Source: Fidelibacterota bacterium (GTDB lineage Bacteria; Fidelibacterota; Marinisomatia; Marinisomatales; UBA1611). Taken from it: a DNA stretch of 64,000 nucleotides. The stretch is from contig JABIHN010000041.1 of assembly GCA_018649625.1 (NCBI GenBank), positions 1 to 64,000 on the forward strand, given 5' to 3'. Both the position numbers and the translations under genes were made by a program. The notes beneath the pieces are model-generated. The model did no database searches. It had not been told where the DNA came from and saw nothing but the letters and a program-made list of their open reading frames with translations. This document shows positions 16,350 to 60,341 of the stretch, piece after piece (the first letter of the stretch is position 1; every line of letters starts with the position of its first letter).

Positions 16350-16361
16350 AATATATAAAAA

Positions 16362-16770
16362 TTTGAGTTGGTCTATAAGCCGAGTTCTGTCCTTTGGATT
16401 AATAATTCCAATACAAAGGGATAGTCATTCGTCTAGCCACAACGTTACCATTGTGATCAAGCAATCTACCCGCTCCTTTAACGATGCGAACAACATCTCG
16501 AAGCCTATTCGATCTTGCACTGGATGGGGTTTACAAGCATACTGAATTTATTCAGAATCTGGTGGTCTCTTACACCACCCTTTCACCCTTACCTATGACA
16601 AATACAAGGCAAGCCTTATGCTCATCGAAGGCGGTTTACTTTCTGCTGCACTTTCCATGGTTCGCAAATGCGAATCTCCTCTCATTATGAGGCATCCTGT
16701 TCTGCAGTGCCCGGACTTTCCTCTCTCGGAGTGCTTACGCTCGCCAAGAGTAACTATCCGACCAACTCAA
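16362..16770 (-). ncRNA. rnpB: RNase P RNA (bacterial type A)
   Basis: Minus strand contains gaggaaagtccgggc near 5' end, gcagaaagtaaaccgcc, gggtaagggtgaaaggg, and 3' end ggacagaactcggcttatagacc; ends pair (gagttggt/accaactc). Confidence 0.95.
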
Positions 16771-38185: not shown

Positions 38186-39775
38186 TTATTCTTGATAATT
38201 ATCTAATTCTCGTGCGGATGGATCAATTGCATCAGTCCATTTTGGCATCCAAAAATGTGGAATTAATTTTTCATGACCTCCAAAATAAGATTCAAATACC
38301 TTACGGTAATAATAGCTCTCTTTTAGAAGAGGGACACAATGGTTCATATTTGAACTCTCCTTATAAAATTCATAATTTGAGATTTTAGCATCAACAAAAC
38401 CTTGTATAATATGATGCCACGATTTCTTTTTTGCACTGACACCATCAGAAAATGCACATTTACGACGCCAAAGGACATCATTAGGCAGGAGTCCTTGATT
38501 ATCAAATGATTTTCGTAATAAATATTTTTCTAATCGATTAATACCGTCAAACTGTTTTAACTCAGCCGGGATAGAGAGATAGTATTTCACAAACGCTTTA
38601 TCTAGAAATGGCGTCCTAGCTTCTAAACCATTTGAACTAATACTTCGATCCGATCTTAAAACATCAAAATAATGAATTTCTTTTAAAAGCCGTTCACTTT
38701 CACTTTGCAATGCCAATGAATTTGGTGCGTTTTTTAAATAAACATAACCACAACATGCTTCATCTGCACCGTCTCCGTTAAAAATAACTTTACAATCCGA
38801 ATTTTCTGAAATGTATTTTGAAACAAGATAATTTCCAACACTGGCTCTCACGGTCGTTGTATCATAAGATTCAATAGCGTAAATAACTTTATCTATCGCA
38901 TTCAAAAAGTCATCTTCTGACACTTCAATTTGATGATGTTTAGTTCCTAAGTGATCAGCTACTGTTTGAGCATATTTAAGATCTATACTTCCCGGAAGCC
39001 CAATAGAAAATGTATTAAGTTTTGGACCGTCATAATATTTATTTACAAGGGCAGAAATCAAGCTTGAATCCAACCCTCCAGACAATAGACATCCAATTTC
39101 ACGTTCTGCCATTAATCGTTTTTGAACAGCATCTGTTAATAATAATTGAATTTTATTGCAAATATCTTCTTCGGTTTTTTCCTGATTTCGCATTCCATTA
39201 TAGTGAAAATAGGAATTGAACTTATTTGGCGACTTGGAATGCCACCAAGCTCCAGGTGGAAATGGCGAAATGTCCTTGCAATACTTTATTAATGGCTTTG
39301 CTTCTGAAGCTATCATGATTTCTTCTCCATCGTAGCCAATAAATCCGGGACGAACTCCCATAGGATCCCTACCTGCAGTTATTTCGCATTTACTTGAATC
39401 ATAAATCACAAACATAAATACACCATCGAGTTCAGCGATTGTTTTTTCAATTCCGAATTTTTCAAACATCAGTAAAATTATTTCACAATCTGATCCCGTA
39501 ACCAAATCTAATTTATATTTTTTGGCTAATTTTAGATAGTTATAAATTTCACCGTTACAAATCATTGTTAATGAATCATTTTTAGGATGTCTCATAGGCT
39601 GATTACCAGTAACAGACATTCCCATAATAGCTAACCGGTGAAACCCAAATAAAATATTATCCGCAAGTTTTTCATGTTGTGTATTATCTGGTCCACGATA
39701 AGAAATTAAGCCTATATCATCTTCCAGTGCTTCCTGTGAATGTTTTGTCCCTTTATAAAAATAAATACCACACAT
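38186..39775 (-). CDS. asnB: Asparagine synthetase (glutamine-hydrolysing)
   Basis: MCGIYFYKGT class-II amidotransferase N-term; GCLLSGGLDSSLIS PP-loop. Confidence 0.93.
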   Translation of the reverse strand: MCGIYFYKGTKHSQEALEDDIGLISYRGPDNTQHEKLADNILFGFHRLAIMGMSVTGNQPMRHPKNDSLTMICNGEIYNYLKLAKKYKLDLVTGSDCEIILLMFEKFGIEKTIAELDGVFMFVIYDSSKCEITAGRDPMGVRPGFIGYDGEEIMIASEAKPLIKYCKDISPFPPGAWWHSKSPNKFNSYFHYNGMRNQEKTEEDICNKIQLLLTDAVQKRLMAEREIGCLLSGGLDSSLISALVNKYYDGPKLNTFSIGLPGSIDLKYAQTVADHLGTKHHQIEVSEDDFLNAIDKVIYAIESYDTTTVRASVGNYLVSKYISENSDCKVIFNGDGADEACCGYVYLKNAPNSLALQSESERLLKEIHYFDVLRSDRSISSNGLEARTPFLDKAFVKYYLSIPAELKQFDGINRLEKYLLRKSFDNQGLLPNDVLWRRKCAFSDGVSAKKKSWHHIIQGFVDAKISNYEFYKESSNMNHCVPLLKESYYYRKVFESYFGGHEKLIPHFWMPKWTDAIDPSARELDNYQE

Positions 39776-39796
39776 ATCGTTTCCTTTTTAATTGAT

Positions 39797-39830
39797 AAAA
39801 AAAAACCCCCAAGAATTAAATTCTTGGGGG
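39797..39830 (-). terminator. Attenuator terminator upstream of asnB
   Basis: Minus strand: CCCCCAAGAAT-tta-ATTCTTGGGGG then 9 U; 21 nt before asnB start. Confidence 0.93.
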
Positions 39831-39838
39831 TTTTTTTA

Positions 39839-39873
39839 AAAGCTTAACCTTATGGTTACAAAGCTTTACCCCC
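39839..39873 (-). promoter_or_regulatory. Antiterminator 5' portion of asn attenuator
   Basis: Minus strand GGGGGTAAAGCTTtgtAACCataaGGTTAAGCTTTtaaaaaaaCCCCC: GGGGG (39869-39873) can pair with CCCCC (39826-39830), enclosing the AAAGCTT/AAGCTTT stem. Confidence 0.7.
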
Positions 39874-39963
39874 ACTTATATTATTATTATTATTATTAAA
39901 TAAAGTGTTAAATTGATCCAAATTATTGGATTGCTTTCGCCATAAAATATTTTGTAATTCCAT
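39856..39963 (-). CDS. Asparagine-rich leader peptide (35 aa) of asnB attenuator
   Basis: Codon-by-codon minus-strand translation MELQNILWRKQSNNLDQFNTLFNNNNNNISGGKAL*; 10 Asn of 35 including six consecutive. Confidence 0.85.
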   Translation of the reverse strand: MELQNILWRKQSNNLDQFNTLFNNNNNNISGGKAL

Positions 39964-39968
39964 GGCTA

Positions 39969-39997
39969 ATCTTATGGATAAATCTTATGGATACCAA
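39969..39997 (-). promoter_or_regulatory. Candidate sigma70-like promoter for asnB leader
   Basis: TTGGTA - 17 nt - TAAGAT, 5 nt before leader ATG. Confidence 0.35.
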
Positions 39998-40017
39998 TAC
40001 CCATCATTACCCTTTTT

Positions 40018-60202: not shown

Positions 60203-60271
60203 ATGAATAACATGAAAACAAATAATTATTACAGTTGGTATTGGTTTTTTAGCCGCAAAGGGGTTTTGTAG
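60203..60271 (+). CDS. trpL: Aromatic leader peptide (22 aa) of trp operon
   Basis: ATG...TAG translates to MNNMKTNNYYSWYWFFSRKGVL*. Confidence 0.9.
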   Translation: MNNMKTNNYYSWYWFFSRKGVL

Positions 60272-60304
60272 TCCCAGGGAATACCTGTATAAATTGACTG
60301 CTCT

Positions 60305-60334
60305 AAAACCCCGACATGATCGGGGTTTTTTTTT
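60305..60334 (+). terminator. Attenuator terminator upstream of trpE
   Basis: aaaACCCCGAcatgaTCGGGGTttttttttt; ACCCC arm can alternatively pair with GGGGTTTT at the 3' end of the leader ORF. Confidence 0.93.
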
Positions 60335-60341
60335 ACTCAAA

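Follow-up and report, generated by a model that had tools for sequence, protein, structure and literature searches.

Between proC and asnB, on the minus strand of the 64,000-nucleotide stretch of DNA analysed here (the window), lies a short reading frame crowded with asparagine codons and followed by a terminator-like hairpin, and the question is whether these elements control asnB. We judge, with a probability of about 0.9, that through them asnB is controlled by ribosome-mediated transcription attenuation in response to the charging of Asn-tRNA. A first-pass annotation of the sequence had proposed Asn leader-peptide attenuation, and the proposal is supported here by covariation in the stems, the presence of AsnRS, and the finding of a single asnB.

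Parts of the asnB leader

The host genome (G000) is a 2.39 Mb member of the Neomarinimicrobiota (SAR406), and its minus-strand gene order is argG, argH, proB, proA, proC, leader, asnB, ilvD, ilvB, ilvN, with gene names assigned from ORF translations. The leader ORF (Table 1) encodes MELQNILWRKQSNNLDQFNTLFNNNNNNISGGKAL*, and Asn accounts for 10 of its 35 codons. The terminator stem is perfect, and the hairpin and its nine T residues (39830-39797) end 21 nt before the asnB ATG at 39775. The CCCCC arm of the hairpin (39830-39826) is common to the terminator and the antiterminator. The earlier description of an ORF with six AAU codons near its stop, an 11-bp hairpin followed by 9 U, and an alternative fold involving GGGGG and AAAGCTT/AAGCTTT proved exact, each element lying where it had been placed.

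Table 1. Coordinates of features in the window (position 1 is its first nucleotide).
Feature	Position	Strand	Remark
-35 element TTGGTA, predicted	39992..39997	-	Matrix scan; 17-nt spacer
-10 element TAAGAT, predicted	39969..39974	-	5 nt upstream of leader ATG
Leader peptide ORF	39856..39963	-	35 codons + stop; in-frame counterparts at 22 asnB loci
Control codons, AAT x6 (Asn)	39880..39897	-	AAT/AAC swapped among relatives
Antiterminator, outer 5' strand GGGGG	39869..39873	-	Within final leader codons
Antiterminator, inner helix, 5' strand AAAGCTT	39861..39867	-	Overlaps leader ORF end
Antiterminator, inner helix, 3' strand AAGCTTT	39839..39845	-	
Intrinsic terminator hairpin CCCCCAAGAAT-TTA-ATTCTTGGGGG	39806..39830	-	Compensatory changes in relatives
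Terminator T-tract, 9 T	39797..39805	-	
asnB Shine-Dalgarno region AAAAAGGAA	39781..39789	-	Kept before asnB genes; leader ATG has none
asnB, glutamine-hydrolysing asparagine synthetase, regulated gene	38186..39775	-	
ORF upstream of ilvD, 50 codons	37944-38096	-	Ends LIIDLLILVIIGLAVQIV / NLIIDLLILVIIGLAVQIV
trpE leader ORF MNNMKTNNYYSWYWFFSRKGVL*	60203-60271	+	G-run at end, then terminator, trpE
RNase P RNA, bacterial class A	16360-16769	-	Rfam match

Folding, a check that the first-pass annotation had recommended, gave the leader RNA a z of -6.5, more stable than all 200 shuffles. The 2.39 Mb genome contains three runs of at least five consecutive AAY codons, one of them in the leader, and the ORF, G-run, and terminator are kept together at 22 asnB loci; the element is therefore beyond chance.

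Conservation with asnB and the asparagine codons

The search sample comprised 245 genomes of the phylum, 34 of which have asnB of this type; in 22 of the 34, belonging to six genera, the leader element accompanies asnB (sequence-level counts below cover 21 of these 22 leaders). A covariance model of the leader gave 22 matches above 70 bits, all just upstream of known asnB genes; as the model was made from the same leaders, this result shows that the 245 genomes hold no further strong copies and is not independent proof. Eleven genomes (genera g9, g11, g31, and g40) have asnB without the element, which is thus non-essential, and this counts against the attenuator reading. In one further genome (G074) the 5' end of asnB is missing. 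The first-pass annotation had staked its proposal on the coupling of ORF and hairpin in relatives: no leader was seen to retain the terminator without also retaining the in-frame Asn run and the G-run, and no part of the leader was recognised where the terminator is lost.

Conservation also bears on whether the terminator merely ends the proC operon, the small ORF being incidental or encoding an unrelated small protein, and asnB having its own promoter. The element does lie directly 3' of proC in genera g1 and g33, but the upstream genes change by genus while leader, terminator, and asnB remain linked, and the pairing of the leader G-run with the C-arm is conserved. Moreover, the T-tract ends only 11-28 nt from the asnB start in 20 of the 21 leaders, too close for an intervening promoter, so that asnB would depend on read-through. 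We consider an operon terminator of this kind very unlikely. In the remaining leader, L010, 194 nt separate the terminator from asnB, and this gap contains a sequence that resembles a small insertion element, with an inner palindrome between inverted ends (AACTCTTTGATAAACCTA...TAGGTTTATCAAAGAGTT).

Leaders fall into form A, NNNN..SGGEAL (genera g1 and g33); form B, NNNNNN-A-NN..VG.xV (genera g6, g29, and g30); and form C, INN..NNA..FGMGxL (genus g26). On the AsnB tree, A and C each occupy one side of a single branch and B needs two changes; the four form labels together need four changes, compared with a shuffled mean of 17.4. The leader thus tracks the descent of asnB, and its history may comprise either one gain with losses or several gains. 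AsnB and the form-A leaders of g1 (family f1) and g33 (family f12) make up one clade despite the different families, and form A sits after proC in most members of both genera; either horizontal transfer or ancestral retention may account for this clade.

In-frame counterparts of the Asn run, whose conservation was still to be established when the locus was first annotated, are present at the 22 asnB loci. The last 20 codons of the 21 leaders comprise 110 AAT and 48 AAC (158 Asn codons) and five Lys codons. Within the Asn runs the third position toggles between T and C while the first two stay AA, none of the 21 leaders has a Lys codon (AAA or AAG) inside the run, and run length varies by whole codons. 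This pattern points to in-frame selection on asparagine codons. A microsatellite origin of the AAU run was ruled out, as relatives mix AAU with AAC in runs that contain neither AAA nor AAG. The codons further speak to the idea that the leader senses a general slowdown of translation, through stalling by drugs or stress, and not asparagine. Drug-sensing leader-peptide attenuators are known, that of Bacillus subtilis bmrCD (PMC4191407) being one; however, the repeated codon here specifies the product of the downstream gene, with its synonyms interchanged, and a sister element before trpE (see below) has Tyr, Trp, and Phe codons instead. A general slowdown sensor is accordingly rated highly improbable.

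This asnB is the sole full asparagine synthetase seen in G000, where the other PF00733 matches are short and weak; no asnA was found there, and it is absent from 18 of the 19 genomes tested. AsnRS is present in G000 and scores above the cut-off in 28 of the 34 asnB genomes, including 20 of the 22 with the leader. It is missing above the cut-off in the other six, all incomplete assemblies and two of them with the leader, which counts against the attenuator reading; G073 has an AsnRS fragment at a contig edge. With a sole asnB and AsnRS present, charged Asn-tRNA can depend on free asparagine from AsnB, and the charging of tRNA-Asn can report free asparagine.

Alternative folds, initiation, and the proposed switch

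Two folds that share the C-arm are available to every leader: a terminator, which is strong at -13.8 to -22.7 kcal/mol, and an antiterminator, at -9.9 to -18.6 kcal/mol. The first-pass annotation had called for covariation in both hairpins: compensatory changes were found across relatives in the terminator stem and, in eight form B/C leaders, in the inner antiterminator helix, whereas for the outer helix the evidence is weak and confined to a few cases at the edges. The outer helix, which competes with the terminator, has a length of just 4-6 bp and an invariant core (the GGG of the G-run is present in 21 of 21 aligned leaders, and the centre of the helix is GGG:CCC), which leaves little room for covariation; this weakness counts against the attenuator reading. 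At the edges, covariation with the terminator takes the form of leader C, arm G, and terminator C in L013, L021, and L037 (the C:G pairing of L013 and L021 was read by eye), and of leader U, arm A, and terminator U in five other leaders. Within genus g6, L035 has G.U on the leader side with U-A in the terminator, and L038 has A-U with U.G. Forms B and C have an extra hairpin between the Asn run and the G-run, ACGCYAAU...AUURGCGU, which also shows compensatory changes; it overlaps the Asn codons and may have a pausing or stacking role.

Another kind of RNA sensor, such as a riboswitch, a T-box, or a protein-binding antiterminator, might act on the terminator, the Asn ORF then being a coincidence. 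Such sensors are common on terminators before amino acid genes, but a scan of the window at Rfam gathering thresholds returned no leader, riboswitch, or T-box, its sole match being RNase P, and the leader RNA is almost entirely taken up by the ORF, whose frame is conserved. A sensor of this kind is extremely unlikely.

The end of the predicted -10 element lies 5 nt from the leader ATG in form A, where the other leaders repeat the predicted -35/-10 geometry of Table 1, and mostly 10 nt from it in forms B and C; these are matrix predictions, and the weights are E. coli-like. Another predicted site scores slightly or clearly higher in L005, L006, and L047, the 10-nt site is not the top-scoring one in L037 and L039, and the matrix scan gave no good site in L010. 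Shine-Dalgarno pairing averages -0.5 kcal/mol for the leaders, which is to say that they have none, versus -5.7 kcal/mol for the asnB genes. The simplest reading is that the leader ORF is probably leaderless, or nearly so.

On the attenuator reading, transcription would begin with the leader AUG or a little ahead of it, giving a leaderless or near-leaderless mRNA on which a ribosome would load. When charged Asn-tRNA is scarce, the ribosome would stall within the AAU/AAC run, leaving GGGG(G) free to pair with the CCCC(C) arm and enclose the inner hairpin; this antiterminator would delay the terminator, and RNA polymerase would continue into asnB. When charged Asn-tRNA is plentiful, the ribosome would reach the stop codon, which lies 12-15 nt beyond the start of the G-run, the G-run would be covered, and the terminator would form. 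Comparison of sequences supports the parts, their conservation, the alternative pairings, and some of their covariation, whereas the start site, the stalled ribosome, the kinetic control, and a response of asnB to asparagine in vivo are what we infer.

The pairings were simulated with the ribosome in either place. With the ribosomal A site on the first Asn codons and RNA synthesised as far as the C-arm, that arm is paired with leader sequence at P = 0.79-0.99; a ribosome standing at the stop codon leaves the terminator as the sole possible fold. Once the full terminator has been transcribed, equilibrium favours it even with a stalled ribosome, which counts against the attenuator reading and means that the switch would have to be kinetic. 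Kinetic control is of course accepted for the trp attenuator. In ribosome-free RNA the antiterminator is dominant in most species, whereas the G-run pairs upstream in L004, L010, L032, and L038, and partly so in L009 and L035. Folding of the ribosome-free RNA thus revealed no 1:2-type protector helix conserved across leaders and predicts that an untranslated leader would mostly allow read-through, unlike that of E. coli trp. The earlier reading may therefore be refined in three respects: the ORF is probably leaderless or nearly so, a conserved protector helix appears to be lacking, and two of the three forms have an extra hairpin.

Sister leaders and known attenuators

A pattern search with the same layout detected a second attenuator-like element in the window, before trpE (60203-60338, plus strand). 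Like the asnB leader, it has a G-run end, an inner helix over the stop codon, a shared C-arm, a terminator, and a -10 element close to the ATG (TATAAT, 10 nt upstream, by eye); it differs in having aromatic control codons (Tyr/Trp/Phe; YYSWYWFF) and in the gene downstream, which is trpE or pheA-like. Leaders of this type are kept in relatives (L096, L102, L108, and L112), two of which have a pheA-like gene downstream. The ORF upstream of ilvD, with counterparts in L003, L006, and L007, is likely a candidate branched-chain amino acid leader; no clear terminator or antiterminator was made out for it. Given the trpE leader and the ilvD-upstream ORF, leader-peptide attenuation looks general in this lineage.

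Covariance-model matches, which below ~60 bits are mostly due to chance, were inspected down to L091. L087 (G104) has a leader, MKLILKSIKTTNQLIWWYNYGGTL, with two Trp codons, a G-run, and a terminator, laid out as in the asnB leader, before a trpE-like gene, and a second identical match lies on contig C30 of the same genome. In L085 and L086 (G060 and G061) a similar arrangement, with a short ORF, a G-run, and a terminator, lies between lysW and an argH-like gene; the ORFs have no evident control amino acid. L084 and L091 were rejected because they lie inside coding sequence, and L088-L090 because they resemble ordinary terminators.

The first-pass annotation knew of no described Asn leader-peptide attenuator, and our limited search, mainly of open-access literature, likewise found none; on that basis, asparagine is apparently a new specificity of a known mechanism. 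If the attenuator reading is true, leader-peptide attenuation gains asparagine as a sensed amino acid and reaches a largely uncultured marine phylum in which comparison is nearly the sole route to regulation. The reuse of one architecture for Asn and the aromatic amino acids would also make the evolution of attenuator specificity testable. We suggest tentatively, at somewhat worse than even odds, that the Neomarinimicrobiota have a distinct class of leaderless, protector-free attenuators with a G-run antiterminator and read-through as the untranslated default, re-targeted by exchange of control codons among Asn, Tyr/Trp/Phe, and perhaps other amino acids.

The E. coli trp, his, thr, leu, ilv, and phe attenuators likewise combine a short ORF with many codons for the pathway product, a mutually exclusive antiterminator and terminator, and a matching pathway gene downstream. 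The asnB locus has the first in its Asn run (22 loci) and an intrinsic terminator between leader ORF and asnB; computationally, and with weak covariation in the outer helix, it also has an antiterminator whose formation precludes that of the terminator and which a ribosome standing at the stop codon would mask. It differs in sensing, as we read it, asparagine, in lacking the conserved 1:2 protector helix of the E. coli trp-type three-hairpin attenuator, in placing its antiterminator strand in a G-run within the last leader codons, and in probably being leaderless. This layout predicts the opposite of E. coli trp when leader translation is blocked. T-boxes, too, sense whether tRNA is charged, and their target can be a terminator. 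An Asn-specific T-box would share both properties, but it works without translation, by direct binding of uncharged tRNA, and the Rfam scan gave the asnB leader no T-box match. Actinobacterial leaders, including the candidate Cys leaders of mycobacteria (PMC1262725), similarly string together codons for a single amino acid towards the end of a short ORF that precedes the matching biosynthetic genes. The mycobacterial candidates have no obvious terminator (PMC1262725), whereas the asnB leader, from another phylum and for another amino acid, has both an intrinsic terminator and an antiterminator.
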